Source: Labilithrix sp. (GTDB lineage: Bacteria; Myxococcota; Polyangia; Polyangiales; Polyangiaceae). From it: a stretch of DNA of 64,000 nt. This document shows, in pieces, positions 19,485-49,239 of this stretch. Location: assembly GCA_028287035.1 (NCBI GenBank), contig JAQBQL010000100.1:1-64000 (forward strand), given 5' to 3'. The position numbers and the translations under genes are program-made. The notes under the pieces were generated by a model, which was not told where the DNA came from, did no database searches, and was given only the letters and a program-made list of their open reading frames with translations. Within the stretch, counting starts at the first letter, position 1, and each line of letters starts with the position of its first letter.

Positions 19485-20729
19485 ATGCGCTCGTCCTCCG
19501 TCACTGTCCTCGCGTTCGCGGGCGTCCTCGTTCTTGCCGGCTGCCGTCGTCCTGCTGCAGAGGGGACGGACGCTGCGATCGCTTCCGCCGCGCCGCCGGC
19601 CTCCGGCAGCGCCGTCGCACCCGCGCCCTCGGCTGCCGCAGCAGGCTGCTCGCTCGAGCACGGGTTTCGCGGCACGATCGGGCCCAAGCTCGAGGTGCTC
19701 GCGCGGCTCGAGCGCACCGCAGCCGGGGTGGAGGGGCACTACCTCTACGCGCACGTCGGCGCCGAGCTTCCGCTGCGCGGGACCATCGGCTCTGATGGTG
19801 CGGTCGCGCTCGCCGAGGGCGACGCGGCGAGCCCGAGCGGGCGGTTCGCCGGTCGCTGCGAGGCCGACGGTCATCTGCGCGGGACGTGGACGAAGACGCA
19901 GGACGGCGCGGCGCTGCCCTTCGACCTCGCGCCGGTCACGCCGCGCGACGAGGTCGTCGTCGTGACGCGGAAGAAGGCGCGGCGCTTCCCGCCTCATCCC
20001 AGCAAGGCGCCGCGCGCGCAGCAGGGCGGTTTCGCGTTCGAGCCGAAACAGGCGTGCACCGAGGAGGTCTCGTGGCCCGAGATCTTCGGGGCGCCGACCG
20101 CCGAGATCGAGGCGAGCATCAACCGCGCCCTCACGAGCGATGCGTGGGTGTTCCCGGATGCGCAAGGCGGGGCGCAGCTGCGCGCCTGCGTCGTCGGCGA
20201 GCGGAGCACCGGGACGCGGAGCTTCGAGGTGCTGATGAACCGCGCCGGCATCTTCGCGGTGCGGGAGCACGAGACCTCGACGTTCGAGGGCGGCACCCAT
20301 CCGTGGGATCCGGGCGCCGAGTCGTGGCTCGCGTTCGACACGCGTACCGGTACGCCGCTGACGAAGCGCGCGCTCCTCCCGAGCACGAAGGCCGGCGAGG
20401 AGGCGCTCTCGAAGCTCCTCGACCGGTGCGTGACCGTGTTCATGAACAACGGTGGCGGCGGCGGCGACGCCACGGAGATGCGCGAGCGAATGAGCCTCGG
20501 CAATCTCGCGCTCCTCGTGCTGCCTGCCGACAAGGGCCTCCACTTCGGCGCGACCGGGTATGCGCCGTTCGCGCGCGTGCTGGAGGGTGAGGGTCCCACC
20601 ATCGCGTGGTCGGCGCTGCTGGCGGCGGGCGCGCTCCCGGCGGGCAGCCCGGCGGCGCGCGCATGGGCGGGCGTGACCCCTGCGAAGCCGACCGACGACC
20701 CGTGCGTGATTGTGCCGCCGCCGCGCTGA
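19485..20729 (+). CDS. Putative lipoprotein with DUF3298-like C-terminal region
   Basis: A 414-residue exported protein. The signal sequence ends in a lipobox (VLVLAGC, Cys about residue 20), followed by an Ala/Ser/Pro linker. A first domain (about 55-150) has repeated beta-strand patterns with G-x-W (HLRGTWTKTQDGAALPF). The second part (about 185-400) resembles the RsiV/DUF3298 fold, with FEVLMNRAGIFAVREHETSTF and AWLAFDTRTGTPLT-like strands. The role is unknown; it could bind polysaccharide or peptidoglycan at the envelope. Divergent from the glycan operon with an 84-bp shared upstream region. Confidence 0.7.
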   Translation: MRSSSVTVLAFAGVLVLAGCRRPAAEGTDAAIASAAPPASGSAVAPAPSAAAAGCSLEHGFRGTIGPKLEVLARLERTAAGVEGHYLYAHVGAELPLRGTIGSDGAVALAEGDAASPSGRFAGRCEADGHLRGTWTKTQDGAALPFDLAPVTPRDEVVVVTRKKARRFPPHPSKAPRAQQGGFAFEPKQACTEEVSWPEIFGAPTAEIEASINRALTSDAWVFPDAQGGAQLRACVVGERSTGTRSFEVLMNRAGIFAVREHETSTFEGGTHPWDPGAESWLAFDTRTGTPLTKRALLPSTKAGEEALSKLLDRCVTVFMNNGGGGGDATEMRERMSLGNLALLVLPADKGLHFGATGYAPFARVLEGEGPTIAWSALLAAGALPAGSPAARAWAGVTPAKPTDDPCVIVPPPR

Positions 20730-20777
20730 GCGGCGTCGGAGGGCGGAACTTCGTTCGCCGGGGAGGGTCGGGGGCGG

Positions 20778-21059
20778 AAAGTCGTTCGGATCCCCCCCGT
20801 GATGTGGCGCGGCGGAGGGGGTTCGAGGGGCGGAAAGTCGTTCGGATCCCCTCATCAGGGGGCCTGGCGATCGGCAGGGATCCGAACGAGTTTTGCGACC
20901 CGGCCCCTCTCCCGGGGCGCCGGAGACCGCGAGGGATCCGAACGAGTTTTGCCACCGCGCCCCTCTCCCGGGGCGCCCGAGACCGCGAGGGATCCGAACG
21001 ACTTTCCGCCTCGCAACCCTCGCTCGGAGCGCCGCGGTGGTGAGGGATCCGAACGAATT
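20778..21059. repeat. Inverted array of ~55-bp-period repeats, locus 1 (6 copies)
   Basis: Six copies of a core, GAGGGATCCGAACGA[G/C]TTT or its complement, fill the gap between the lipoprotein and the cytochrome-like gene. Two copies are reversed (cores about 20778-20794 and 20834-20850), then four are forward (starting 20877, 20933, 20989 and 21044). Spacing within each arm is 55-56 bp. The two central copies can form a 17-bp stem with one mismatch around a 26-nt loop. Intervening DNA is GC-rich, with CTCTCCCGGGGCGCC repeated in part of the forward arm. A 55/56-bp period is not a multiple of three, so this is not a protein repeat. No promoter or gene is apparent inside. Confidence 0.85.
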
Positions 21060-21073
21060 CCGGGTCACGCGGT

Positions 21074-22141
<1,068 letters not shown>

Positions 22142-23083: not shown

Positions 23084-24259
23084 TCAGGGCAGCGCGACGA
23101 CGCCGCTGTCGAGCAGACGGGCCGCCTCGACCGCCGAGAGGATCGCGTACGTGGCCATCGTGTCCCCTCGCAGCCACACCGCCGTGCACCGCCGGCGGTC
23201 TTCGCGCAGCGCCAGCGCACGGTCGATCTCGCCGCGCACGAAGCCGAAGAGCACGTCGAGGTCCGTCGCCTCGCGCACCGCCCGCCGCGCGTCGAAGAGG
23301 CAAGGAAGCCGCTCGGTCTGGAGCGCGGCGAGCGCGCCGCCGACGATCGCCATCGGCGCCTCGAGCGTCGCACGCGAGAGCGCGGACCGCGCAACCAGGG
23401 CGTGAGCCACGAGCTCCTGCGCGAGCGAGGTCGTGACCCCCTCCTCGATCGTCGCCTGGCGATGCTGGGCGGCGAGCGTCGCGTCGTCGGCGGGCAGCGG
23501 CACGTCGAGCGCCGCGAGCACCGCGCGGCACCTCGCAGCGGCCGCGAGGCGTTCCTCGTCGGCGCGGAAGACGATCAGCTCCGCGACGACGGGCCCGAGC
23601 TCTCCATCGAGCCGCCGGCCCGTCGTGATCGTCGCGCGTGCCACGAGGCCCGTCGAGAGCGCATCCAGCAGGTACGGCGCCGAGGTGGCGCCATCACGGA
23701 TCCTCGCCTCGTCCGTGACGTCGGGGGACCGCATCGGCACGTCACCGAGGCGCGGAAGTGGCCGCAGGCCGTGGGTCCGGAACCCGGCGGCCACGCGCTC
23801 GGTCAGGACGACCGTGAAGCACGTGCGCGTGTCGAGCGCCGGTCGTGCGGAGCGCGCCGCGACGAGCCGATGCGCGGGCGACGCGAAGCGCGCGATCGAG
23901 CCGTGCGCCGGCTTCTCTTCGGCCGGGACGCGAAGATACCGCGCCGTACCCTGGGCGCGCAGCACCGCGGCGAGCCGCTTCGCCTGCGCGCGGTGCTCGT
24001 CGCCCAGGAACTCGTGGGGGTCCTCGGGGCCGATGCAGAGCGACACGGCAGGGCCGAAGACCTCCGCCCCGATCGGCGGTTCGACCGAGCGCACCACCAG
24101 GTCACCCAGCTTCGTGTCGGCGATCTCGTCGAGCCCGATCGGGCGAAGCTCGCGCCGGAGCGTGGCCTCGTCGGGGAAATCGAGCGACACCTCGTACCGG
24201 TCTCCGACGCTCCAGCAGGACTCCACGTACGTGAACGGTGACGTGTCGTCCGACAGCAC
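23084..24259 (-). CDS. Hypothetical protein, partner of the SMI1/KNR4 gene
   Basis: A 391-residue protein that I do not recognise. Starting at GTG 24259 it overlaps the upstream TAG stop by one base (TAGTG), which argues for translational coupling. It is mixed alpha/beta without signal peptide or membrane helix. The N-terminal third is rich in acidic and aromatic residues; the last ~190 residues are Ala/Arg/Glu-rich and helical (ARCRAVLAALDVPLPADDAT, ending RLLDSGVVALP). No catalytic motif stands out. Coupling to an SMI1/KNR4 protein leaves toxin-immunity, regulatory or structural roles open. Confidence 0.65.
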   Translation of the reverse strand: MLSDDTSPFTYVESCWSVGDRYEVSLDFPDEATLRRELRPIGLDEIADTKLGDLVVRSVEPPIGAEVFGPAVSLCIGPEDPHEFLGDEHRAQAKRLAAVLRAQGTARYLRVPAEEKPAHGSIARFASPAHRLVAARSARPALDTRTCFTVVLTERVAAGFRTHGLRPLPRLGDVPMRSPDVTDEARIRDGATSAPYLLDALSTGLVARATITTGRRLDGELGPVVAELIVFRADEERLAAAARCRAVLAALDVPLPADDATLAAQHRQATIEEGVTTSLAQELVAHALVARSALSRATLEAPMAIVGGALAALQTERLPCLFDARRAVREATDLDVLFGFVRGEIDRALALREDRRRCTAVWLRGDTMATYAILSAVEAARLLDSGVVALP

Positions 24260-25467
24260 TACCGGTGCCGCGCCCGGGACTGCGACGCGGGGCAGGTCGT
24301 CCTCGTCGTCCTCCTCGTGTCGCCGCGCAGAGCGTCGAGCACGAGCTGCTCGAAGTCCTCGTCGAACGCGCGGAAGGGCCGGTCGTCGGCGAGGAAATCG
24401 TGCGTGGCGTAGGCGAACCGGCCATCGGTCGTCGCCACGCATGCGGTGCCCCTGGGGAGCGCATCGCCGAAGGTGAAGAGCGGTACCGCCCGACGGAGGT
24501 TCTGCCCGATTCCCCATCCGATCGGCGTGCCCTCGGCCGATCCGGCCCCGAGCATCTCGTCGACGAAGCGATTCAGCGTCGTCCGCGCTGCCTCGATTCC
24601 GCCCATCGGCGACGATCCGTCGATCGAGAACATGCGCAGCCGGCGAGCGTCGAGCCAGTGGTAGCGGCGCAGGAAGGCGACGTAGCTCGCCGGCAACGCC
24701 ATCCCGAATCGCGCTTCGAGCGCCCGCACCTCGTCTTCACTCGCGCCGCGGCTGGCGCGCGCCGGGGGACGGCCGCGCGCGTCGAGCCACGCGAGCGTGT
24801 CCGCGAGGCTCGTCCGGGGCAGCCGCTCCTCGAGCACCGGGACCGCCGCCATCGCGGCGTCCTCCACGGACTCGTGCACGTCGACGGCGCGTAGTCCGAC
24901 GCGGGGCACGAGCTTCGCCGACGTGAGGTAGTAGCGCGCCCCTGCGTACGGTCGCCACGAGGGATCACGACGCCGGCGCGCGAAGCTCGTGGCGCCGCAC
25001 GACAGCTCCTCGCCATCGTCGGCCACGGCGCGCCCGGTGCCGTCGTCCTCGTCGAACGACACCAGGGTGATCGCACAAGGCTCGACGACGAGCTCGCGCG
25101 GCTCGTCGGCTTCGAGGACCAGCTCGAGCAGCGTGCGACCGCCGAGCGCGAAGCTCGCGCGGGCGCCTTCCCGCCACGTGATCCCTTCGGCGGGCATCTC
25201 GCTCGACGCGACGACCCGTCCGTCGATCGCGACAGCGCCGCCTTCACTCGTGTGCTGCAGCCGGCAGACCCCATCGGCGCCTTGCACGACGCGGTACGAG
25301 AACGGCGCGCCTCGGCCCTCCGCCATGCCGCCCTGCCGGACCGCGACCCCGCCGCCCTCCGCACCTCCGATGCCGAGCGGCGCGCCCGTCGCGATCGTGC
25401 GGCATGCGAAGGCGTCCAGCCCGCCCAGCGATACGTCGACAGCACGAGCCACGGCGCGCAGACGCAT
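24259..25467 (-). CDS. SMI1/KNR4-domain protein with N-terminal FHA-like region
   Basis: A 402-residue protein. The C-terminal ~170 residues carry an SMI1/KNR4 fold: SEDEVRALEARFGMALPASY followed by VAFLRRYHW is the characteristic start, and MFSIDGSSPMGGIE and FDEDFEQLVLDAL complete it. The SMI1/KNR4 superfamily is common among immunity proteins of polymorphic toxin systems. Residues about 60-120 are beta-rich (CRLQHTSEGGAVAIDGRVV, RTLLELVLEADEP) and may be FHA-like. No toxin gene is adjacent, so an immunity role is speculative. Confidence 0.72.
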   Translation of the reverse strand: MRLRAVARAVDVSLGGLDAFACRTIATGAPLGIGGAEGGGVAVRQGGMAEGRGAPFSYRVVQGADGVCRLQHTSEGGAVAIDGRVVASSEMPAEGITWREGARASFALGGRTLLELVLEADEPRELVVEPCAITLVSFDEDDGTGRAVADDGEELSCGATSFARRRRDPSWRPYAGARYYLTSAKLVPRVGLRAVDVHESVEDAAMAAVPVLEERLPRTSLADTLAWLDARGRPPARASRGASEDEVRALEARFGMALPASYVAFLRRYHWLDARRLRMFSIDGSSPMGGIEAARTTLNRFVDEMLGAGSAEGTPIGWGIGQNLRRAVPLFTFGDALPRGTACVATTDGRFAYATHDFLADDRPFRAFDEDFEQLVLDALRGDTRRTTRTTCPASQSRARHR

Positions 25468-25508
25468 CCGTCCACGATACCAGGCGCGTTGCGGTGATAA
25501 TCTGCGGC

Positions 25509-25715
25509 ATGGGCGAGACCAGGCCGTGCGAGACGTGCAAGCACCCGCTGACGTTCGGGGGCATCCGGAACTTCCGGACGGGGGGCCAGGGGGGGCTCGG
25601 CACCTTCTTCTTCGGGCAGTGGGCCGAGGCGTCGGAGGAGCTGCTGCCTCTCGCCATCTGGGGCTGCACCACCTGCGGGCGCATCCAGCTCTTCCTGCCG
25701 ACCGTCACGCCCTGA
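25509..25715 (+). CDS. Small zinc-ribbon-like protein
   Basis: A 68-residue protein with two CxxC knuckles (CETCKH near residue 7 and CTTCG near residue 56) on either side of a Gly/Phe-rich middle (GGQGGLGTFFFGQW). This arrangement suggests a zinc ribbon. The function is unknown. It is divergent from the SMI1/KNR4 gene and ends 23 bp before the truncated tRNA copy, making it the last chromosomal gene before the island. Confidence 0.65.
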   Translation: MGETRPCETCKHPLTFGGIRNFRTGGQGGLGTFFFGQWAEASEELLPLAIWGCTTCGRIQLFLPTVTP

Positions 25716-25738
25716 GGCGCGTGGAGAATGTCGAATGG

Positions 25739-25783
25739 CACGCCGAGAGGATTCGAACCTCTGACCTACGGCTCCGGAGGCCG
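25739..25783 (-). repeat. Truncated tRNA-Arg copy = left attachment site (att)
   Basis: This stretch repeats the T arm and anticodon half of the intact tRNA-Arg at 30674-30747. 25745-25783 (39 bp) is identical to 30681-30719, and the match continues outward with one missing G in the acceptor strand. The remaining 5' half of the tRNA is absent, so it is not a working tRNA. Same orientation as the intact gene, as expected for an attachment site left by integration into a tRNA 3' end. Confidence 0.88.
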
Positions 25784-25954
25784 CATGACAAGGCACGAAA
25801 GTGAACGGGTGCGCGGAGTTGGAGGCGAACGGCCCCCCCTTGAACCTGACATGAGGTCGTATGTTAGACGGTGACCTCCGGTGAAAAGGCACCAGCCGGT
25901 GCCTATTGCGCTGGGGCGCTGCGTGTCTCCGACGAGGGTGTGCGGTCGGCGGGC

Positions 25955-26287
25955 CTACTGCGAGAGCGAGATCACGTCGTCCGCCGTACCCTGGGCGCCG
26001 TCCGGGCCGAAGCTGATGACGGTGTTGCTCCCGACGTTCGTGTCCGTGCTGCACGTGATCTTGAAGGGGTGACCCCACGGGTCCAGCTTGTCCTTCCCGA
26101 GGTCTGACGGTCTCGGGCAAGCGTTGTTGTGCTCGGCCCGGTACGCGGTCGCTTGGATGCGGAGCACGTTGGCGCTCGTCAGCGCGCTCTCTCGCCGCTG
26201 GTTCTCGCGCTGGCCCTTCTCGGCCTCCTCACGGCCGCACCCGAGAAGGCCGACGCCAACGACAAGGACGAGGAGCCTGAAGGTCAT
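25955..26287 (-). CDS. Small lipoprotein with type II pseudopilin-like C terminus
   Basis: A 110-residue protein starting with a short hydrophobic signal and lipobox (VVGVGLLGCG, Cys near residue 17). The second half reads DKLDPWGHPFKITCSTDTN and SFGPDGAQGTADDVISL, the pattern seen at the C terminus of GspG-type major pseudopilins, whose DGxxGTxDD loop binds calcium. It lacks the N-terminal pilin helix, so it is not a working pseudopilin. It lies just inside the left end of the island and may be chromosomal debris or cargo. Confidence 0.65.
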   Translation of the reverse strand: MTFRLLVLVVGVGLLGCGREEAEKGQRENQRRESALTSANVLRIQATAYRAEHNNACPRPSDLGKDKLDPWGHPFKITCSTDTNVGSNTVISFGPDGAQGTADDVISLSQ

Positions 26288-26632
26288 CGTGCGAGCGTAC
26301 GGGTGAAGGACCTCCGCGTGCCATGCTTCGCGTTCACTACGTCGCAGCCCGTGGCTACACTGGTTCCACGAGCACGGCGGCGACCTCGCGGAGCTGCTCT
26401 CGCCGCGCACCGCCACCGACGCCGCCGATCTTTCCCCGATTGGACCCGCCCGGGCCGCTCTGCCGCATCATCACGGCGTCCGGGTCATCGCGAGGCGAGA
26501 ATGAGCCTCGGCGAGAGGCTTGCAGCCATGACAATGCGCTTCCGGGAAGGCGCCTGCCATGTTCGACGTTCGTATGCACCCCCCTTCGGGGGTCTGTCCG
26601 CGCGGTCCCGACGCCGTGTACGCTCGCCGGCC
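26288..26632. other. Island stretch without a convincing gene
   Basis: 345 bp between the pseudopilin-like lipoprotein and the 235-aa gene. Open frames cross it but show no codon bias or recognisable protein. It contains a small CCCC-TTCG-GGGG hairpin (26581-26592), 40 bp before the GTG of the next gene; it lacks a T run and is more likely a leader structure than a terminator. The promoter of the two-gene operon probably lies here. Confidence 0.4.
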
Positions 26633-27340
26633 GTGCCGCTCTACTGGTTCCACGCGTTCGACCGCCCGGACCTCCCGAAGATCATCGAGGTCCTCCGCGA
26701 TGGGCCGAAGCATCATCCGTTACCAACATCGGAAACACGGCGGAACGAAGCCGAGCTAGGCATCGAACCGCCGCACGTCTACGCCTACCTAGGCCGCACC
26801 TTGAAGAGCTTCGGACAGAACGCGATCGCCTTGAAACAGCCAGCACTCGAAGGCGAGGTGTGTCCGTTCGACTCCGGTGGGCTGCTTCGAAAAATCGCGC
26901 CCGTCTCGGGGAGGAAGAAGGCCGCGAAGGCGGCGTACCTGCAAGCCTACTCTTGGCCGACCACGGCGCTGAGGGTGTTGCTCAAGACTTATCCGTCGTC
27001 GTCTCAAACGCAACACGTTGCGTACGTCGCAATGGCGGCGCCAGCGGTGGATGGTCCTCATGTGTACTGGCCGAAGCGAGGCGCCGCAGAGCCGATCTGG
27101 ACGAGCAACACCCAGTGGCGTGCATGGACCTGGGAAGGCCGCTCGCCGTCGCCGCTGACGACGGGCAAGCACCTCGTGAGATGGACCTGCCCGAATGACA
27201 CCTACCCCAAGCTGGAAGAGTACGTAGCAAGCCGGCCGCCCTCTGACAGAAAGTGGTTCGAGCAGGTTTCGAAGCTCTACGTTCGCGGCGGATTGACTCG
27301 GCTCATGACTGCCCTGCGTGCCGCTCAGGAGACGCCGTGA
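26633..27340 (+). CDS. Unrecognised island protein, 235 aa (first gene of an overlapping pair)
   Basis: I do not recognise this protein. It starts at GTG with VPLYWFHAFDRPDLPKIIEV, and has a central segment YAYLGRTLKSFGQNAIALKQ, then a distinctive GEVCPFDSGGLLRKI (about residues 75-90), and aromatic-rich strands (HVYWPKRG, WRAWTWEGR). The mixed alpha/beta sequence, with conserved-looking Cys, Asp and His, could be an enzyme, but no known catalytic motif fits. The stop overlaps the next start (GTGA), so the two are translated together. GC is lower than in neighbouring chromosomal genes. Confidence 0.6.
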   Translation: MPLYWFHAFDRPDLPKIIEVLRDGPKHHPLPTSETRRNEAELGIEPPHVYAYLGRTLKSFGQNAIALKQPALEGEVCPFDSGGLLRKIAPVSGRKKAAKAAYLQAYSWPTTALRVLLKTYPSSSQTQHVAYVAMAAPAVDGPHVYWPKRGAAEPIWTSNTQWRAWTWEGRSPSPLTTGKHLVRWTCPNDTYPKLEEYVASRPPSDRKWFEQVSKLYVRGGLTRLMTALRAAQETP

Positions 27341-29220
27341 CCGACGTCGTCGGCTACGAGGCCGCGCCCTCCGAAGGCTTCCTCGTCGCGTGGGGCGCTG
27401 CTGCGATCAGAGATGAGGACTCTCTGGTGAATCCTGCGACGGGCATGCGTGTCGAATGGAGCGACGATGAAGTGAAGGCCCTCGAGGAGAACGGCGATCT
27501 CGTCCTCCTTCCTAAGCCGTTGCCAATCGGCGAGGAATACGCCAAGCATCACCTTGTCGTCCTGCAGGTGGCGAAGCTCTCGGCCTACTCGAAGGCCTTC
27601 CACATCGACACCCAGCAAGCGGGTGGCATCGTGGGGTCGCATTGGACGAAGCGATATCACTTCTATGTGTTCGAGAATGACTTCGCCTTCGACCAGATGG
27701 CGCACCGACTCTGCACGCAGATCGTGACCGCGGTTCTCTCGGGCGCGTTCACCGATACGGAACGCGACCGCCTGATCGAAGCTGGCCTGATTCTGGACTC
27801 GTACGATCCATTCTTGAATGCACTTCGCGTCTGGTTCTCACCACGCCGCCCTGCACTCAGGCAGGTTGTCTCGGGCAAGCTCTCCGAATTCCATCGAGAG
27901 AGATTCGACCAGATGCTTGGGGACCTTGAGGAACTTGAGGCCGCGGCGGAGGCGGAAACCGAAACCGAGCTTGCGCGCTCGGAGATGTTCCTAAAGTATC
28001 AGAACGGGGTCGTGCCTCCCGGCGGCGGGCTGAATGTGCCGGTTGCGCTCCGTGTCCTGCACGCGATGAACGGCGTGAGCAGCGAACTGCAGCAGATCGT
28101 CTCGGATGAGTTTCCGTTCATCGAAGACCCTCCACCACTTCACGTTCAATCGCTCGTGGCGGCCAGCGCCGAGTTTCACTTCGCCCCGGTTGGGGAGTCA
28201 CTCGGAGAGCAACTCTCTCGGCTCATCCAGCTGAGGTACCTTTCGAACGCGCTCGAAGGTAAGGAGACGAGGATCAAACCGACGACGCTCGCGCGCCTCA
28301 CCGACCTTGGCGGAGAAACCAACCTAAGCCACAAGCCCATAGGACAGCACGACATTCGGGGCGTGAACCTGGCCGCGCAGAACGTGAAAAAGCCGCGACG
28401 GTCGGAGCCGTTTCAGGTGCTCGGATATCAGTCGGGGCTGGTCAATTCAGGCAAGCGAGTGGAGATCACCATCTTCCCGGGCCGTCGTTTTTCAGTGGGT
28501 ACCACTGACAATGGGGACGGCGATCCTCCCCTCAACCTGGCGTTCCTTGAGACCTCGCGGGACTTCCTCTTCCGACCGACGCTTTACACGTTAGTCCGTT
28601 CGGTTGATGAGCGGGGCCGAGAGGTCTTTCATCTGCGCGACGTGCGAGCGGTTCGTTCGAAGTTCGAGGGCACGATCACGGCACTGCCGTCTGCCATTGT
28701 TCCCGGAGCATTTATCTTCGGGCTTCGGTTCCGGCTCTCGTCAGCCGACGGTAGAACACTGCAGATCGGCGTACTCGGTCCCGTCGATGCGTCCTCTGCC
28801 TCCGTCAAGGAGGCTCGAAGCTGGCTCGGTGACTATCGTGGTCAATGTCTAGAGTACGAGCTCTCGCCGTCCCACAAGCCGATCCGTCGCATGAAGCCCC
28901 CGAAGCACGTGGCGACCGCTATCGGGCGTGTCGTGGTCTCCCTCCAGGATCTCGGCGGTTCCGCCCCCGTCACGCGTCTAGTAACGGAGATCAACGCGCG
29001 ATACGACACGACGCTCCGCGTGAACAACACGCGACGAGAAGCGCTCTTCCACCCGGACCTTCTCGAGTTTGACGACCACGACCCACGCGTCGTTCGCCTG
29101 ACGGACCGCGGCATTCTGTACGCGACCGCCTATCGCGCTGCTGGCGGTGGCGTCGGGGTGAATCTGGAGGAACGCCTGAAGTACGACGACGGCACCGCGA
29201 GCGTCGACGACAAGAGCTAG
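27337..29220 (+). CDS. Unrecognised island protein, 627 aa (second gene of the pair)
   Basis: A large soluble protein of unknown family; no signal peptide or membrane helix is apparent. GTG 27337 overlaps the preceding stop by 4 bases. Regions: an N-terminal alpha/beta part with RYHFYVFENDFAFDQMAHRL (about 115), an acidic coiled-coil-like stretch (DLEELEAAAEAETETELA, about 208), a beta-rich middle (FQVLGYQSGLVNSGKRVEIT), and a C-terminal segment (about 525-600) resembling a winged helix: VSLQDLGGSAPVTRLVTEIN and VVRLTDRGILYA. The C terminus suggests DNA or protein binding. A defence or regulatory role would suit its island setting, but this is inference. Confidence 0.65.
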   Translation: MTDVVGYEAAPSEGFLVAWGAAAIRDEDSLVNPATGMRVEWSDDEVKALEENGDLVLLPKPLPIGEEYAKHHLVVLQVAKLSAYSKAFHIDTQQAGGIVGSHWTKRYHFYVFENDFAFDQMAHRLCTQIVTAVLSGAFTDTERDRLIEAGLILDSYDPFLNALRVWFSPRRPALRQVVSGKLSEFHRERFDQMLGDLEELEAAAEAETETELARSEMFLKYQNGVVPPGGGLNVPVALRVLHAMNGVSSELQQIVSDEFPFIEDPPPLHVQSLVAASAEFHFAPVGESLGEQLSRLIQLRYLSNALEGKETRIKPTTLARLTDLGGETNLSHKPIGQHDIRGVNLAAQNVKKPRRSEPFQVLGYQSGLVNSGKRVEITIFPGRRFSVGTTDNGDGDPPLNLAFLETSRDFLFRPTLYTLVRSVDERGREVFHLRDVRAVRSKFEGTITALPSAIVPGAFIFGLRFRLSSADGRTLQIGVLGPVDASSASVKEARSWLGDYRGQCLEYELSPSHKPIRRMKPPKHVATAIGRVVVSLQDLGGSAPVTRLVTEINARYDTTLRVNNTRREALFHPDLLEFDDHDPRVVRLTDRGILYATAYRAAGGGVGVNLEERLKYDDGTASVDDKS

Positions 29221-29482
29221 ACGTCGCCGCTACGATGGGTCCGTGCTCCACGACCACGATCGCTCGGGCCTCACTGGACCTGGACTTGAACGAACAGCAA
29301 ATACAAGGACGTCGATCCCTGGCACTCGAGGTGGGGGCGGTCTGCGTTCGTGCAGCACTTAGGCTACCCGGATGCAGCGCACGCCAGCCGCCGACAACGC
29401 TGGACGACGGGCGCTTCGTTGGTCCGCGGCCACGCCCGCAATCGTAGAGCGCGTCGCGCGCGGGCAACCGAACGACCCCACC

Positions 29483-29851
29483 TCACAAGCAGCGGTAGAC
29501 CTTCGCCGTGAAGACGTGGTGCTTCACGGCGTACGACGACGAGTGCGCGTCGACCGTCCCGAAGATGCCGCGGCTGGCAGTCGTGTCCGTCTCCACGGTG
29601 GTGCCGCCGAAGTCGTCGAGCACCCGATAGTGCGTGCCGCCGTGGTTGGCCGCCGTCTCGGCAATGTCCTTGACCGTCGCGGCCTCGACGACGAACCCGA
29701 GCTCATCGCATCCCTCCTTCGCGTCCTGCACTCGGTACGCGTCCTTGGTGGCGCCGTACTCCTTCGCTCCCTTCGCCGGACGGAACCGGGCCGGGTCCGA
29801 GCACGCCCCGCAGAACGGCAGCACCAGCACGAGCCAGGTAGCTCTCATCAT
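29483..29851 (-). CDS. Small lipoprotein
   Basis: A 122-residue exported protein: signal MMRATWLVLVLPFCGAC with a lipobox-like PFCGAC, then a domain of alternating strands and helices containing CDELGFVVEAATVKDIAETA and GGTHYRVLDDFGGTTVE. This resembles small Gram-negative envelope lipoproteins with a DUF4156-like fold. The tail ends VFTAKVYRCL, and the Cys may pair with the internal Cys. Start 29851 (tandem ATG; 29848 possible). The 262 bp upstream of its stop, 29221-29482, separate it from the convergent 627-aa gene and hold nothing I can name. Confidence 0.6.
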   Translation of the reverse strand: MMRATWLVLVLPFCGACSDPARFRPAKGAKEYGATKDAYRVQDAKEGCDELGFVVEAATVKDIAETAANHGGTHYRVLDDFGGTTVETDTTASRGIFGTVDAHSSSYAVKHHVFTAKVYRCL

Positions 29852-29906
29852 CGTCACCCCCGACCGTCCACGGTATCGAGGGGAGCGACCGGTGCACAAT
29901 GGGAAG

Positions 29907-30301
29907 CTAGGCGAGCGCGTCGCGATGGCGTGCAGCCGCGTCGAGGGCCTTCTCCTCGAGTTGCCGGATGCGTTCACGACTGAGGCCAAGCGGAGCGCCG
30001 ACCTGCTCGAGACTCGGCCCGCCGCGGTCGGCCACGTCGAGGGCGCACGAGAAGTCAGGCGGCACGTCTCGCCCCTCGAACGTCTCCCTCCCGCGTCCTG
30101 ACTTCGTGAGCTCGACGAGGAGCGAATGCCGGCAGGTGGAGAAGGGCCAAATCGAGGGGGTCCGCGCACTCTCCACGGTCCGCGGCCGACGCAGAGCAGG
30201 CCCTCGTCTTCGGTGTCGTCCGTCGCGTTGTCGTCGACCGTGAACGGGACCGGCAGACGCAGACCTTTCGTGGTGCCCGCAGGTCCCCTGGCGAGTGGCA
30301 C
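29907..30301 (-). pseudogene. Frameshifted sigma-70 region-4-like DNA-binding protein
   Basis: The C-terminal part, in the frame ending at 29907, reads WPFSTCRHSLLVEL, CALDVADRGG and then a sigma-70 region 4 helix-turn-helix, SLEQVGAPLGLSRERIRQLE. Related small proteins have the order LLC-x-GPW, CRH, CALDVA, HTH. The LLCVGRGPW part is here too but in a different frame (upstream of about 30175), so one indel near 30170-30180 splits the gene. It is probably a relic of the island, unless the frameshift is a sequencing error. The proposed start, GTG 30301, is uncertain. Confidence 0.55.
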
Positions 30302-30673
30302 CCGGTCGCGAATGGTCGAACGCCGCCCCGCTCTTCCCGTGACCGAACGCGCGCACTCGGAGGAGAAGCCTGCTCGGGACCTCTTTCGCCGCTCCGCTCC
30401 GGCGTGCGTTTCTTCGCGTGGGCCTGACGGCTCAGGACGTCCGCCACGACACCCGACGTCACGCGCGTGGACTGGCACTTGTTCCGGCGCGCCTTCTCGA
30501 CGGCAGCGGCTGAGGCGGGGTCGACGAACAGCACGCGAGGCTGCGCACGGCCCGGTGACCCGAACGTGCATGCCAGGTACCCCAGCAGAACCGGGCCATG
30601 CGGCGGATCCCGCGGGCGCACTCGCGAAGGCACTAGCAGCGGCCGATCCTTCCGAGCCCACCTAGAATCTCTG
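30302..30673. other. Island right end, no convincing gene
   Basis: 372 bp between the frameshifted HTH gene and the tRNA. All frames are open for long distances, but without start sites or recognisable products. A reverse-strand segment around 30400-30533 (peptide VEKARRNKCQSTRVTSGVV) looks protein-like but has no credible boundaries. It could be the remnant of a truncated gene at the island edge. Confidence 0.35.
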
Positions 30674-31940
<1,267 letters not shown>

Positions 31941-44006: not shown

Positions 44007-44969
44007 ATGGGATCGCTGCGCGTCACCGTTCACGAGGGGAGGAGCGTGGCCGAGCTCGCCGCGTGCTCGCGGGCCGCGCTCGACCGGCCGCTCGAGGCGG
44101 ATGGCGAGCTGCTGGTGGGCTCGACCGCCGACGAGGGGCTCGTGCTCGGGGCGTTCCAGCGGCCGGGCGAGCTGCCGGCCGACGTGCTCGGTGCCTACGC
44201 GGGGCGCCTCGTGCAGCGTGGCTCGGGGGGCGGCGAGGTTCGTGCGGCGGCGGGCACCGTGTGGCTGCAGCTCGCGCTCCGGCGCTCCGATGCGCTCGTG
44301 GCGGGCCCGCCCGACCGGCTGATCAACCGGCACGTGCGGCCGCTGCTGAAGGCGCTGAGCAAGCAGGGCGTGAAGGCCGGCTACTTCGACCGGGACTGGG
44401 TGGGCACCGCCGACAAGCGCGTCGTGGCCGCGGTGAGCTTCGGCCACGACGCCCGGAGCGGCCGCGCGCTCTTCGAGGCCTTCGTGCCGACGCGCGAGCC
44501 GATGGCGGTGCGCGAGCGGGCGGCGTGGCGCGGCCGGGCGCCGGGCATCGTCGCGGCGGAGGGCCTCCTCGCGGCGATCGCCGAGGCGTACGTGTCCGCG
44601 TACGGGGGCTCGCTGCTTGGCGGCGAGGCGGCTCCGTGGGGCGCCCCGTCCGGTGCGGCCGGCGGGGCGGCGGCCGGCGCTGCATCGTCGGGGGGCGGGT
44701 TGGCGGCGCAGGCGGGCTGGTCGGCGACGTGTGAAGAGGCGATCGGCGTCCTCGGCGCGGCTCGTGAGCAGGGGCGGGTCCACATCGGCGGCGAGCTCAT
44801 GGCCTCACGGGACGCGGTGACGCGGCTCGAGGAGCGTCTCTCGTCGTTGCCGCTGCTCGATGCCCTCTCGGTGGGCGCCGCGATCGACGAGGAGCTCGCC
44901 GCGCCGGGCGTCGCCGTGTTCGGCGTCCGCTCCCTTCGCTCGCTCTGCGACATCCTCCTCGCCCTCTGA
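44007..44969 (+). CDS. Lipoate-protein ligase-like protein (BPL/LPL fold)
   Basis: About 320 residues. The first ~210 resemble biotin/lipoate A/B ligases: VGSTADEGLVLGAFQRPGEL, the Gly-rich RGSGGGEVRAAAGTVWLQLA in place of RRxxGGG, and INRHVRPLLKALSKQGVKA, with YFDRDWVGTADKRVVAAVSF matching the segment around the catalytic Lys. A Gly/Ala linker and a ~90-residue helical tail follow. It could attach lipoate or a related acyl group, or be non-catalytic. Start ATG 44007. The second repeat array begins directly after its stop. Confidence 0.65.
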   Translation: MGSLRVTVHEGRSVAELAACSRAALDRPLEADGELLVGSTADEGLVLGAFQRPGELPADVLGAYAGRLVQRGSGGGEVRAAAGTVWLQLALRRSDALVAGPPDRLINRHVRPLLKALSKQGVKAGYFDRDWVGTADKRVVAAVSFGHDARSGRALFEAFVPTREPMAVRERAAWRGRAPGIVAAEGLLAAIAEAYVSAYGGSLLGGEAAPWGAPSGAAGGAAAGAASSGGGLAAQAGWSATCEEAIGVLGAAREQGRVHIGGELMASRDAVTRLEERLSSLPLLDALSVGAAIDEELAAPGVAVFGVRSLRSLCDILLAL

Positions 44970-45652
44970 GCTCGTTCGGATCCCTCACGGTCGCGTGCGC
45001 CGCGGAGGGAGCATGGGGCGTTGAAAGTCGTTCGGATCCCTCACGGTTTGGCGCACGGGGGAGGGAGCTGGGGCGTTGAAAGTCGTTCGGATCCCTTACG
45101 GTCCTGCGCGGCGCGGCGGGACGGTGGGGCGGCGAAATCGTTCGGATCCCTCACGGTCTGGCGCGCGGGGGAGGGAAGGGCGTTGAAAGTCGTTCGGATC
45201 CCTCACGGTCTGGCGCGCGGACCGGCCGCCTGCCCGCGGTGCCGCCCCCTTCGCGGTTGCGGACCGCCTGCAGGGCGCGGTGACGGTCCCCTCCGGCGGG
45301 TCGTGAGGGATCCGAACGAGTTTGGCGGGGTGGGGCACGTCACGGCGCAGGCGGGTCGTGAGGGATCCGAACGACTTTCGCGGGGTGGGACACGTCACGC
45401 GCGCGCGGGTCGTGAGGGATCCGAACGACTTTCGCGGGGTGGGACACGTCACGCGCGCGTGGGTCGTGAGGGATCCGAACGAGTTTGGCGGGGTGGGGCA
45501 CGTCACGGCGCAGGCGGGTCGTGAGGGATCCGAACGAGTTTGGCGGGGTGGGGCACGTCACGGCGCAGGCGGGTCGTGAGGGATCCGAACGAGTTCGGCG
45601 GGGTGGGACACGCCGCGGGGTGCTCACGGTCGTGAGGGATCCGAACGAGTTT
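44970..45652. repeat. Inverted array of ~55-bp-period repeats, locus 2 (12 copies)
   Basis: Twelve copies of the same core as at 20778-21059. Five are reversed (GAAAGTCGTTCGGATCCCTC type; starts about 44970, 45024, 45079, 45135, 45185), then a 92-bp gap, then seven forward (CGTGAGGGATCCGAACGAGT type; starts 45302, 45357, 45411, 45465, 45520, 45575, 45631). The forward units are near-identical over their full 54-56 bp (spacer CGGGGTGGGACACGTCACG type). The period is not a multiple of three and no frame stays in phase, so it is not coding. It fills the gap between the convergent lipoate-ligase-like and porin genes; 45653-45748 holds nothing recognisable. Confidence 0.9.
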
Positions 45653-45748
45653 TGCCGCCGGGGACACGCCGCGGGGCGCCGCGGTCGAGGGGGCCGGATA
45701 CGCTGCCCGGCGGCCGAAGGGCGACACGCAGCCCAACGAGTCGCTTCG

Positions 45749-47212
45749 TCAGAAGAAGCTGCCCTGCAGCCACGCCGTGTAGCCGAACGTGTGGCGCGAG
45801 GGGGCCGGGGCGGCGGCCGGATGCAGGTTGTCGATCACGTAGCTGACCTCGTTCACGAGTCGTAGCCAGCGCGTGAAGCGGACGCCCGCCATGAGCACGT
45901 AGGCGTCGCGGCCGTTCTCGTCGATCGAGGAGTCCGTCGTGTACGTGTCGAAGCGCGCGCCGGCGAGCGCCCAGCGCGTGAGCTCCTGCTCCGCACGCAG
46001 CGAGAAGCCGCGCTCGTTCACGTCCCGCACGTCGGCGCTGAAGCTCGCCGGGATGACGGGCAGCGCGAACGGCGTCAGGGCGCCCGTGTCCATGTTGCGG
46101 CCGAACATCAGCTCGGCGCCGAGCCGCGTCTCGCCGAGCGACGGCACGAACACGTGATGGACGCGCGCCGCCACGTTCGTCGCCATGCGCCCGTAGTTCT
46201 TCACGCGCAGCGCCCGCGTGTCGACCAGCTGGCCGCGGCCCGCGTAGCCGGAGAGCGACGCTTCGATGGGCCCCTTCCGCAGCTCGGCCATCGCGAAGAA
46301 GTCCTTCGACGTGTCGAGGTCGGGCAGCGCTGCGAAGCCCGGCTCACCGAGGCGCCGACCATTGACGATGCCGACGTCCACGCTCACCAAATCGCGCACG
46401 AACGTCTTCGCGTGCAGCCCGAGATCCCGCTCCGACGGAAACAGGCTCTGGGACATGAACGTGCGCTCGATGAACGGCCGCGTCATGCTCGACTCGAGCA
46501 CCTCGGCGAGGAACGGCACCTGGAAGAGCCCCCCGGTGAGCTCGGTCCTCACGTCCGGCGTGAAGCGCGCGATCCCGGTGACCTCGGCGTTGCGCGCGAG
46601 CGTCTGATCCGTGGCGGTCGGTCCGCCGGCCGGCAGGAGCTCCGCCTCCAGCGTCACGCGCAGCACGTCCGTGTCGTAGACAGTCCGGAGCCGCGTGCGC
46701 CGCAGCCGGAAGAGGTTCGTGTTCGTGGTCGACCCGTCGCCCCGCGCCACGACGTCGTTGGCGCCGATTCCCCGCGGAAGACCGCTGCCCCCGCCGTTCG
46801 GCGAGGCCGCGGCGTCGAACGACTGCAGCCGGTACTGCAGCTGGACATAGCCCTGCACCTTCAGGTGACGGAGCGGTCCGAGGTCCTGCTCGAGCGACGC
46901 GATGCGGGCCCGCGCATTCTCGAGCGAGGCGCGCAGCCCGGCCTCCGCGTGTGCCTCGCCCGCAGGCCCTGCGCTCGCCCCCGCGGCCGGCATCACGTCG
47001 GTCCCCGAGAACGACACCGGCCCGCCTTCCCCCCCCGCCGCCCCGGCGACAACCGGCGGAAACACGCGCGGCGGATCCGCGGCCTGCGCCGGCGACGGCT
47101 CGTTCTTCGCAGGCAACGGCGCGGGCGGCAGCAGCGCCTGCGCGCCCGCCGGCGACGCCCACAGCACGAGGAGCGCAGCGAACACGAAGGTCGGCCTGCG
47201 CACCGCGCTCAC
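45749..47212 (-). CDS. Outer-membrane porin-like beta-barrel protein
   Basis: About 487 residues. A signal peptide (FVFAALLVLWASPAGAQA) is followed by a Pro/Ala-rich stretch, a short coiled coil (SLENARARIASLEQDLGPL) and many amphipathic strands with alternating residues, ending in an aromatic (LQGSFF) as outer-membrane barrels do. VQGYVQLQYRLQSF and NTNLFRLRRTRLRTVYDTDV are typical of phosphate-selective (OprP/O-like) porins. GTG 47212 overlaps the stop of the HD-GYP gene (GTGA), linking it to cyclic-di-GMP turnover. Confidence 0.8.
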   Translation of the reverse strand: MSAVRRPTFVFAALLVLWASPAGAQALLPPAPLPAKNEPSPAQAADPPRVFPPVVAGAAGGEGGPVSFSGTDVMPAAGASAGPAGEAHAEAGLRASLENARARIASLEQDLGPLRHLKVQGYVQLQYRLQSFDAAASPNGGGSGLPRGIGANDVVARGDGSTTNTNLFRLRRTRLRTVYDTDVLRVTLEAELLPAGGPTATDQTLARNAEVTGIARFTPDVRTELTGGLFQVPFLAEVLESSMTRPFIERTFMSQSLFPSERDLGLHAKTFVRDLVSVDVGIVNGRRLGEPGFAALPDLDTSKDFFAMAELRKGPIEASLSGYAGRGQLVDTRALRVKNYGRMATNVAARVHHVFVPSLGETRLGAELMFGRNMDTGALTPFALPVIPASFSADVRDVNERGFSLRAEQELTRWALAGARFDTYTTDSSIDENGRDAYVLMAGVRFTRWLRLVNEVSYVIDNLHPAAAPAPSRHTFGYTAWLQGSFF

Positions 47213-49239
47213 GGCTTCTGCGCGCGCTCCCACACGCGTGCTTCCCGGAAGATACGAACGAGCTCGGGATCGAGGTGCTGGTCCTTCACGCCGTACTCGA
47301 GGATGTCGACGGCGCGCTCCACGGGCACCGCCTTCTTGTACGGACGGTCACTCGCCGTCAGCGCATCGAAGATGTCCGAGATGCTCATCATCTTCGCTTG
47401 CACCGGGATCTCCTCGGCGCGCAGGCGGTTCGGGTAGCCGGTCCCGTTGAGCCGCTCGTGATGCGCGCCAGCGATCTGCGGCACGCGCCGGAGCGCCTTC
47501 CCCCACGGGATGTTCGAGAGGAACCGGAACGTGTGGGACACGTGGCTCGTGATCTCGTCGTACTCCTTCGGCGTGAGCGACCCGCGCTTGACGCTGAGGG
47601 CGACCGCCTCGTCGGCGTCGATGAGGAACTGCGTCTGCCCTCGCAGATCGAAGTACGTCTCCTTCGCCAGCAGCTCGATCTTCGCGAAATCCCCGGCGGC
47701 GAGCACCGTCGGCTCGTTCGCCGCCATGATCGTGGCGTACGACGCATCGAGCTCGGCGCGCCGCTCCTGGTATTCTCGGTCGAGCGCCTCGAGCTCGCCG
47801 CGCGGCGCTCCGCGCTCCACCGCGGTCAGCTTGCGCCGCAGCATGTCGGCCTCGAGCGAGCGCGCGATGAAGTCGAAGCGTGCCCGGATCAGCTCGACCT
47901 TCTCCTCGTACAGCTTGTTGGCCTTCACGAGGACCTTCTCGCGAACGCCGATCTTGCCGAAATCGTGGAGCAGCGAGGCGTATTCGAGCTCGCGCAGGTC
48001 CTCCCGCGAGAAGGTCGCGATCTTGTACGGACCGCTCGACTCGCTGTCGACGACCTTGGCGAGCGCCACGGTGAGGTCGGCGACGCGGCGCGAGTGACCG
48101 CTCGTCGTGGGGTCACGCGACTCGATCGCCTCGACGCTCGCCTTCACGAACCCCTCGAAGAGGTTCTGGATCTCGCTGTAGAGCATCGCGTTCTCGAGCG
48201 ATGCGCCGGCCTGCGCGGCCACCATGCCGAGGAGCTCCTCGGACCGCTCGTCGAAGGGCACCACCTGCTCCTCGACGTCGTCCTTCGAGTAGAGCTTCTT
48301 CTCGGGGTCCTTCTTCTTGTTGATCAGCTGGATGACGCCGATCACCTCGTCCCGCTGCGAGATGAGCGGCACGGTCAGGATCGACTTCGTCCGGTAGCCG
48401 ATCTTCTCGTCGAACCGCCGGTCGAACCCGTACGGGGCGCCCGCCGGGATCTCGTACGCGTCGGCGATGTTGATGGCCTTGCGACCGACGACGGCGCTGC
48501 CCGCGATCGATCGCGTCGAGATCCCCATCACGAACTCGCGCGAGTCGTACGCGACGGTGTCGTTCTGCGAGAGCTTGAACCGCAGCATCGGCCCGCGCGC
48601 GGCGCGGCTGGTCGGCGGCGCGTCGACGTCGACCTCGGCGCTCTCCTCCTCGACCACGTAGATGCTGCCCGCGTCGGCGCCCGTGACGAAGCGGCTCTTC
48701 TCGAGGATGACGCCGAGGAGCTTGTTGACGTCGCGCTCCGTCGTCATCGCGTGCGCGATGTTGATGAGCTCGCCGAGCTCGTAGCGATAGCGGCGCAGCC
48801 ACTTGCCGCGGCTCTCGGCGCGGCCCTTCGCCTCGAGCAGCTCGAAGGCGCGGGTCACCGCGAGGAAGCACTCGTCGAGCGAGGCGTGCTCCCCGACGAT
48901 GCTCGCGAGCCCGCGGTTCATCGCCTGCTGCAGGTCGACCTCCTGCGGGTAGCCCATGAGGATCAGCATCCCCGTCGACTCGGCGAACCGCGCCGTGAAC
49001 GGCTTCAGCAGCTCGCGCCCGCGATCCCACACCACGGCGGGCGCGAAGATCACCATGAGGTCCTCGCGCGTGACCGCGACCAGCAGCGGGTGCGGGCGCG
49101 TCACGATCTCGGCGGCCAGCCGCGGGTCGCGGGCGAGCTGGCCGGCGAACCGGTCCAGCCTGGCGACGAGCGGAGGCGCCGCTTCGGTGATCTTCGGCGC
49201 GCTCGGCTCGGGCGCGAGCGCGCTCTGCATGTCGGTCAT
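47209..49239 (-). CDS. GAF/HD-GYP-domain protein (putative cyclic-di-GMP phosphodiesterase)
   Basis: A 676-residue soluble protein. An N-terminal helical region (about 1-160), a GAF domain (about 160-345; DVNKLLGVILEKSRFVTGAD, ILTVPLISQRDEVIGVIQLI) and an HD-GYP domain with SGHSRRVADLTVALA, the HD pair in LLHDFGKIG (about 425) and HHERLNGTGYP (about 593). The motif set is intact, so activity is expected. The HD and GYP motifs lie about 170 residues apart instead of the usual ~60. The extra ~100 residues (about 445-545) look like an antiparallel coiled coil. Its stop overlaps the start of the porin gene. Confidence 0.92.
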   Translation of the reverse strand: MTDMQSALAPEPSAPKITEAAPPLVARLDRFAGQLARDPRLAAEIVTRPHPLLVAVTREDLMVIFAPAVVWDRGRELLKPFTARFAESTGMLILMGYPQEVDLQQAMNRGLASIVGEHASLDECFLAVTRAFELLEAKGRAESRGKWLRRYRYELGELINIAHAMTTERDVNKLLGVILEKSRFVTGADAGSIYVVEEESAEVDVDAPPTSRAARGPMLRFKLSQNDTVAYDSREFVMGISTRSIAGSAVVGRKAINIADAYEIPAGAPYGFDRRFDEKIGYRTKSILTVPLISQRDEVIGVIQLINKKKDPEKKLYSKDDVEEQVVPFDERSEELLGMVAAQAGASLENAMLYSEIQNLFEGFVKASVEAIESRDPTTSGHSRRVADLTVALAKVVDSESSGPYKIATFSREDLRELEYASLLHDFGKIGVREKVLVKANKLYEEKVELIRARFDFIARSLEADMLRRKLTAVERGAPRGELEALDREYQERRAELDASYATIMAANEPTVLAAGDFAKIELLAKETYFDLRGQTQFLIDADEAVALSVKRGSLTPKEYDEITSHVSHTFRFLSNIPWGKALRRVPQIAGAHHERLNGTGYPNRLRAEEIPVQAKMMSISDIFDALTASDRPYKKAVPVERAVDILEYGVKDQHLDPELVRIFREARVWERAQKP

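Follow-up and report, generated by a model that had tools for sequence, protein, structure and literature searches.

A mirror-image array of an invariant core between two convergent genes of a Labilithrix contig, possibly a REPIN/BIME-like doublet with tandemly amplified arms

An inverted array fills the gap between two convergent genes

We analyzed a 64,000-nucleotide stretch of Labilithrix sp. contig JAQBQL010000100.1, called the window below, which holds the two known loci of a repeat element with 18 cores between them within 64 kb. Locus 2, the subject of this report, comprises 12 cores at 44972-45648, five on the minus and seven on the plus strand, exactly as an earlier sequence-only reading of this DNA had counted them. 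The array fills a 779-bp gap between the stop codons of two genes that are indeed convergent, as that reading had also proposed, with stops at 44969 and 45749. The features referred to in the text are as follows.

44967..44969, plus strand: stop codon of the left flanking gene (gene start 44007 or 44046)
44972..45208, minus strand: left arm of locus 2, five cores (44972, 45028, 45083, 45138, 45190)
45182..45328, no strand assigned: central inverted doublet of locus 2, that is, the innermost left and right cores with the intervening sequence; foldable as one long hairpin
45301..45652, plus strand: right arm of locus 2, seven cores (45305, 45360, 45414, 45468, 45523, 45578, 45634)
45749..47233, minus strand: right flanking gene, convergent (start 47233 or 47212); its stop lies about 100 bp from the last core
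20744..21062, no strand assigned: locus 1, same family as locus 2, two minus cores (20782, 20838) and four plus cores (20875, 20931, 20987, 21042)
20826..20901, no strand assigned: central inverted doublet of locus 1, inner distance 43 bp; foldable as a hairpin

Read towards the center of the array, the core sequence is TCGTTCGGATCCC, 13 bp that are invariant in all 18 cores of both loci. On the plus strand the left-arm cores of locus 2 consist of TCGTTCGGATCCC followed by TCACGG in four of five cases and by TTACGG at 45083, and GAGGGATCCGAACGA is exact in 11 of the 12 locus 2 cores, the core at 45083 carrying the one mismatch. Successive cores are 56, 55, 55 and 52 bp apart in the left arm and 55, 54, 54, 55, 55 and 56 bp apart in the right arm, so that the spacing first estimated at about 50-56 bp measures 52-56 bp. 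The central gap of 92 bp proved exact when taken between the inner 19-bp cores, and the inner distance of locus 2 is 121 bp. When a 15-mer core was searched across the window with up to three mismatches, 21 matches were found (4.75 expected; none of 100 shuffles reached 21), and 18 of these fall in loci 1 and 2. Two bases separate the first locus 2 core from the stop codon at 44967-44969. The right flanking gene has no match in Pfam or NCBIfam.

Locus 1 has a degenerate outer copy near 20750, visible by eye, and is located between two plus-strand reading frames, 19485-20729 and 21140-22141, which are thus in the same direction and not convergent. Its first exact core lies 52 bases past the stop of the frame at 19485-20729, a frame with no Pfam match that was not called by the codon model and to which one relative has a 36% identical protein. 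Searches with the proteins neighboring locus 1 gave matches in none of nine and in one of 15 genomes.

Database searches gave no name to the array: Rfam had no match at E values up to 1 in 44500-46200, plasmid and phage records had no match to the array, and scans of viral contigs (60 plus nine stretches, all 69 checked) revealed one-orientation tandem runs and single inverted pairs with no mirror-image array. No description of the element was found in the literature searched, but most subscription journals were outside reach and its absence is therefore unproven; the papers matching 11-mers around the core concern, among the matches listed and judging by title and abstract, unrelated subjects.

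Elsewhere in the window, a gene for an encapsulin shell protein (Linocin_M18) adjoins one for an EncFtn-like protein (155-1463), and the region between the two array loci (23084-31940) encodes eight scanned proteins with no Pfam match over the cut-off, one of which has a weak SUKH-1 (SMI1/KNR4) match.

The core is constrained while the spacers drift

Each unit consists of the core, a spacer of about 35 bp and a mostly A-rich end. We aligned the 14 complete units, leaving out the four innermost cores, which have no complete unit, and found that 34 of 35 spacer columns are variable as opposed to five of 21 core columns (Fisher 7e-9), the core columns having been picked after viewing the alignment. 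The same difference is seen inside single arms: one of 21 core columns against 17 of 35 spacer columns in the left arm of locus 2 (p = 0.0008), one of 21 against 14 of 35 in its right arm (p = 0.004) and two of 21 against 19 of 35 in the right arm of locus 1 (p = 0.001). The constraint on the core that had been suggested from the sequence thus stands. The selection on spacing suggested along with it remains unproven, given a spacing of 52-56 bp in the window and an inner distance of 121 bp at locus 2 that does not correspond to whole helical turns.

The forward units had been described as near-identical, and this is true of three of the six complete right-arm units, which are identical. Two others are 98% alike and 88-89% identical to those three, and the outermost is the most divergent at 80-81%. 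The identical units do support the recent tandem amplification proposed from them.

We then compared spacers between arms and loci against about 2000 random segments of the window. Spacers of the left arm of locus 2 (2L) are related to those of locus 1: no random segment scored as high as the pairings 2L2-1L1 and 2L2-1R2, and 0.05% did so for 2L4-1L1, with 2L4-1R4 weaker at 3.9%. Comparisons inside locus 1 gave 0.8% and 4.5%. Right-arm spacers of locus 2 (2R), on the other hand, appear unrelated to the left arm, with 98% of random segments scoring as high or higher, and to locus 1 (34% and 58%), three 2R pairings having been tried overall. Scoring against shuffled letters ranked the pairings alike, with mean z values of 3.8 (2L-1L), 3.5 (2L-1R), 2.3 (2L-2R) and about 1 (2R-locus 1). 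The claim that the two loci share a core with different spacers is therefore not supported for 2L, and for 2R no relation was detected in the three pairings. From these comparisons and the invariant core we conclude that the arrays belong to one family of 55-bp units with drifting spacers and a fixed core, and that the 55-bp unit, not just the core, is common to loci 1 and 2.

A neutral minisatellite, in which slippage and unequal exchange built the array and the cores are alike through recency alone, would agree with the identical units of the right arm and with the absence of the array in relatives (see below). It does not account for a core that is invariant across arms with unrelated spacers and varies less than the spacer even inside single arms, nor would slippage alone explain the inversion of the array, and we consider this origin improbable.

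The central doublets are predicted to form hairpins

Both central doublets fold as single-stranded DNA into predicted hairpins far more stable than expected from their composition: -25.8 kcal/mol at locus 1 (z -5.92) and -52.2 kcal/mol at locus 2 (z -5.77), with none of 200 shuffles as good in either case. Four doublets of a Microbacterium metagenome-assembled genome (MAG), described below, gave DNA fold z values of -3.5, -2.6, -2.4 and -4.4. Single units behave differently. RNA folds of one or two units from seven window stretches ranged from z 0.67 to -1.58, none beyond shuffles, and none of the ten predicted consensus pairs of the unit shows a compensatory change; an RNA structure formed by each unit was therefore rejected. 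The sole palindrome seen in the core is GGATCC.

Folded as RNA, the entire 782 nt form a single long hairpin of -486 kcal/mol as opposed to -403 kcal/mol for 20 shuffles (z -13.8). This value, and the position between convergent stops, would suit a bidirectional terminator or a long double-stranded RNA in which read-through RNA of either gene pairs both arms. Any inverted array folds in this way whatever its function, however, and no terminator-like site was found in 44900-45800, no covarying hairpin exists per unit and locus 1 is situated between genes of the same direction. In the MAG, moreover, arm pairing is not preserved, since left and right spacings differ (22 versus 31-32 bp at two loci). 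Taken together, these observations make this function a distinctly unlikely one.

The array is a recent gain

For comparison with relatives we used 317 genomes of the class of G001, a Polyangia MAG, in 122 of which the neighboring M20 peptidase was matched. Twenty stretches around this gene were compared, and in 11 of them both flanking genes could be aligned with their stops (in nine they could not). The stop-to-stop gap, 779 bp in the window, is -16, -7, -4, 1, 24, 29 and 97 bp in the seven relatives that keep the gene pair adjacent and 645, 1116, 2174 and 3300 bp in four other, mostly less similar ones. A scan of the 20 stretches for inverted tandem 9-mers turned up a single inverted set (75 bp, a different 9-mer, in L085), which lies outside the convergent gap, with the left flanking gene on one side and the peptidase gene on the other. 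Given the short gap devoid of an inverted array in seven relatives, the array is a recent gain in the window's lineage. The sequence-only reading had named absence of the core from all related genomes as grounds for rejecting the element; no examined relative was found to carry the array, a result that reaches only as near as the closest of the 317 genomes, which is 81% identical in the M20 peptidase.

Since near-identical tandem units are an assembly hazard, we also considered an assembly artefact. The units can be distinguished from one another, the two arms differ and both flanking genes are syntenic in relatives, and this explanation appears very improbable indeed.

Other repeats were noticed along the way. 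The 97-bp gap, that of the relative G261, holds an unrelated 22-bp tandem repeat (L079:6045-6109), and the same genome has a 27-bp tandem repeat after its MglA gene (L079:9722-9810). Between convergent frames of the relative G265 (L104:3924-3974) we observed tandem 18-bp units of the form GGTTCG-TTTT-CGAACC ending in TTTTT, which resemble stacked bidirectional terminators. In G286 (L299, L300) two closely similar elements, each about 400 bp long, contain internal repeats with CGTTCG and by eye resemble MITEs.

Scanning 944,034 bases of the window, its relatives and the MAG for at least two plus at least two inverted tandem 9-mers, we found that the two window loci and four MAG loci stand out, next to three small cases with other 9-mers. 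Further array cases in Polyangia are few: a 10-mer core pair occurs in 11 of the 317 genomes, compared with two for a backwards control, and all 11 lie outside G254-G265, the range that includes the closest relatives. The array sequences of G282, G288, G289 and G101 look non-coding by eye, with some overlapped by reading frames, and the remaining Polyangia cases were mostly judged from matched letters only. In G288 and G289 (L042:1440-1700, L043:1250-1620) the array adjoins what looks like one and the same gene; these are tandem arrays of about 42 bp directly after that gene, with a hairpin-forming core CGATCCG-N7-CGGATCG that contains TCGTTCGG. Of 60 genomes in the G265 family, 17 contain an inverted 8-mer pair and seven match its backwards control, so single inverted core pairs are no strong sign of an element.

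Elements with a similar core in a Microbacterium MAG

A scan of genome contigs seeded with the window's own 12-mer core pair, in the form of two GGATCCGAACGA copies 28-58 bp apart, yielded 12 loci and led to the Microbacterium MAG G002. By eye, eight of the 12 resemble coding repeats. This genome has 59 TCCGAACGA sites, 40 of them in eight mirror-image loci and 19 single; 18 of the single sites have no partner within 250 bp at up to one mismatch, and the remaining site is 160 bp from a partner with one mismatch. The G002 elements are like those of the window in their 9-bp core, in their polarity (TCGTTCGGA left, TCCGAACGA right, at eight of eight loci), in being intergenic and in the tandem copies that extend the arms on one or both sides at six of eight loci. 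They differ in having a nearly fixed inner distance (65 bp at six of the eight loci, 64 bp and 75 bp at the other two) and in their outer copies, which recur every 22, 31-33 or 41-44 bp. Inspection by eye shows CC-N before most of their cores and no further likeness of the flanks to the window.

While inner length is nearly constant in G002, the sequence between the cores varies. The 56-bp centers of six equal-length loci (15 pairs) are 36-46% identical (mean near 42), apart from one neighboring pair at 70%, compared with 29-46% (mean near 37) for reversed controls. This is the pattern of near-constant length and free sequence reported for REPIN spacers (PMC3116915). Four of the eight loci are between convergent genes, three between genes of the same direction and one between divergent genes, the left gene at one locus (C78) resting on a Pfam match and not on a gene call. 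At the one locus compared with relatives, that beside HtpX, the compared stretch has no 8-bp core in two of the three closest (L199, 79%; L201, 77%), and the third (L200) has unread bases there. We had entertained a rule by which cores always lie at 3' ends in the sense of the upstream gene and dropped it in view of locus 1, the three same-direction and one divergent G002 loci and L036, a Polyangia core pair that also breaks it.

The geometry of the G002 loci bears upon the idea of a docking array, in which a DNA-binding protein (nucleoid, insulator or roadblock) would occupy cores along one helix face and serve an architectural role. In G002 the spacings of 11 arms fall close to multiples of 10.7 bp (mean cosine 0.93; none of 20000 random sets; one arm with spacings 43, 33 and 43 was entered as 43). 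Along with the constraint on the core across arms and loci, the inner distance of 65, 64 or 75 bp despite differing center sequences would favor such a protein, as would GCGTGTCG-N9-TCCGAACGA, which by eye is exact in six of eight centers. Tested by its four distinct period classes, however, the phasing is not significant (1489 of 20000 sets), the locus 2 inner distance amounts to 11.3 turns and no protein is known to bind the core. Helical phasing is thus suggestive only, and we consider a docking array unlikely, if worth keeping in mind.

The likeness between the window and MAG cores, which emerged from a search that used the core of the window as its query, may reflect a relationship through a shared factor or a coincidence in one 9-mer. 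The triple core occurs in three of 296 actinobacterial genomes and the inverted 8-mer pair in 30 of 119 genomes of the MAG's genus, at seven places in G002 and one or two elsewhere, many of the matches outside G002 being one shared stretch that looks coding.

G002 also contains further inverted doublet families, with arms CACAACGGCGGAGATC, CGAGACCACATCC, AATTCAGGCAGA, CATGTCCCACTTTCTG and CTTCTGGGCACCGA, one of them a nested two-plus-two (L133:10045-10140, L285:4110-4190, L290:2025-2110, L292:8205-8305, L289:4498-4570 and others). In 590,678 bases of this genome there are 48 inverted pairs with arms of at least 12, chance pairs included. Two common actinobacterial doublet arms had no match in the literature searched.

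Doublets beside AbiEi_4/DUF559 genes

In Microbacterium and Leucobacter, AbiEi_4/DUF559 genes (helix-turn-helix plus Vsr-like nuclease) adjoin inverted doublets with gene-specific arms (L155:4670-5861, which is G002 C76; L196:2368-2432; L194:1847-2170; L130:19476-20002; L197:730-1737). C76 is between two TCGTTCGGA elements, C41 is before a doublet of another family, the Leucobacter gene follows two copies of a third and there are two more cases. When doublets were counted up to 150 bp past the stop and up to 250 bp ahead of the frame, a doublet with arms of at least 11 lies beside five of five such genes in the Microbacteriaceae sequence examined as opposed to 34 of 332 G002 genes, and with arms of at least 13 beside four of five as opposed to 22 of 332. 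Against this association, it was the elements of C76 that drew attention to that gene, one of the five frames is truncated where its stretch ends and the background is G002, not Leucobacter. No more AbiEi_4/DUF559 genes were found in 400,000 bases of two Microbacterium genomes or in 314,224 bases drawn from Microbacterium and other actinobacteria, and plasmid records gave no match.

AbiEi antitoxins are reported to bind inverted repeats located within the promoters of their own genes (PMC7319586), which makes autoregulation the simpler reading of doublets beside these genes. At least one of six Polyangia genomes searched has an AbiEi_4 domain, and no AbiEi or DUF559 match was found among 43 scanned proteins of the window, a set made up of 42 of its 50 predicted proteins and one lipoprotein-like frame. 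A class of elements reaching across phyla, with non-palindromic inverted doublets, fixed or helically stepped geometry, outward tandem arms and AbiEi_4 and DUF559 proteins as recognizers in the role of RAYT, is in our estimation a doubtful proposition. If the actinobacterial lead holds, a candidate enzyme family has been named.

Interpretation and comparison with known systems

Our best explanation, which we hold with about even confidence, is that the array is a lineage-specific non-coding repeat of REPIN/BIME type: an inverted doublet whose arms were tandemly amplified and whose core has been kept through a protein that recognizes it. The heart of the element would be the inverted core pair, which, as single-stranded DNA or as RNA, could form a hairpin. 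A doublet of this kind presumably came to sit between the two stop codons, and its arms would then have been extended outwards by tandem duplication of the unit of about 55 bp. That the core stays intact while the spacers decay would be expected because something must recognize the core. The most likely candidate is a DNA-binding protein, such as a nuclease or transposase, that acts in trans from a gene at another place in the genome. Read-through transcription may incidentally be stopped or insulated, because each flanking gene meets a same-sense core at its 3' end and then the hairpin. The analysis itself shows the array, its recent gain, the homology of units between the loci, the constraint on the core and the predicted hairpins; mobility, the recognizing protein and any effect on transcription are what we infer from them. 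Counting against the REPIN reading are the failure of single units to fold on their own, the missing tag, the negative scan of window proteins for a transposase or RAYT and the inner distances of the two loci, 43 and 121 bp, where REPIN spacing should be more constant.

Set against the short gap in seven relatives, the locus is a clean case of an intergenic repeat that came to lie between two conserved genes and expanded to both sides of a hairpin center with its core fixed. Should a protein that binds the core be found, it would show how REP-like elements with neither palindromic arms nor a known transposase persist.

The array had been put forward as the strongest candidate in the window for an undescribed element, which overstates the case, since inverted doublets of REPIN/BIME type close to the 3' ends of genes have been described (PMC3116915, PMC3733652, PMC2817692). 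It is also not a CRISPR array, in agreement with the sequence-only reading. Although repeats are separated by spacers in both, the window spacers repeat together with their units, the orientation flips mid-array and the core is short; CRISPR was rejected on the duplication of spacers along with units. The closest analogue of a tandem repeat inside an element is BrickBuilt, a MITE with an internal minisatellite in Porphyromonas gingivalis, reported from strains of that one species (PMC4596501). Like the window array it is an intergenic tandem array of short units in a small element with inverted ends, but it is a direct 23-bp tandem repeat lacking spacers and not two mirror arrays around a hairpin.

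At both loci the array is intergenic and near gene 3' ends, the position looked for in REP/REPIN sequences. REP/REPIN sequences usually have more than 100 copies per genome, each REP is an imperfect palindrome and the cognate RAYT is a Y1 transposase. PMC3733652 places REP elements mainly between same-direction and convergent genes, near 3' ends, and describes them as forming dimers and bearing a GTAG or CGTC tag. For REPIN doublets, PMC3116915 states that arms are more conserved than the spacer and that spacer length and hairpin capacity are critical, and PMC2817692 states that BIMEs alternate in orientation and that RAYT genes are flanked by inverted REPs. According to these three sources, REPINs and BIMEs share with our array the short intergenic inverted pairs, the hairpin-forming doublet, the less conserved spacer, the location near gene 3' ends and, sometimes, clustering or tandem arrangement. 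The window differs from them in that its arm has no hairpin of its own, its core has no GTAG/CGTC tag and no RAYT is seen, and from BIMEs in that it has same-orientation runs of five and seven with one inversion and no alternation. In both array regions GTAG/CTAC occurs zero times and CGTC/GACG seven times, none adjoining any of the 18 cores, which are preceded instead by AAAG, AAAC, GAAC, GAAA, GAGC or GAAT, and no transposase or RAYT was found among the 43 window proteins scanned. Since the element shares the position, the inverted pairing and the doublet hairpin and is without the palindromic arm and the tag, with no RAYT among the window proteins scanned, we regard it as working like a REPIN/BIME-type repeat and as a variant, and not a member, of the RAYT-linked REP family.
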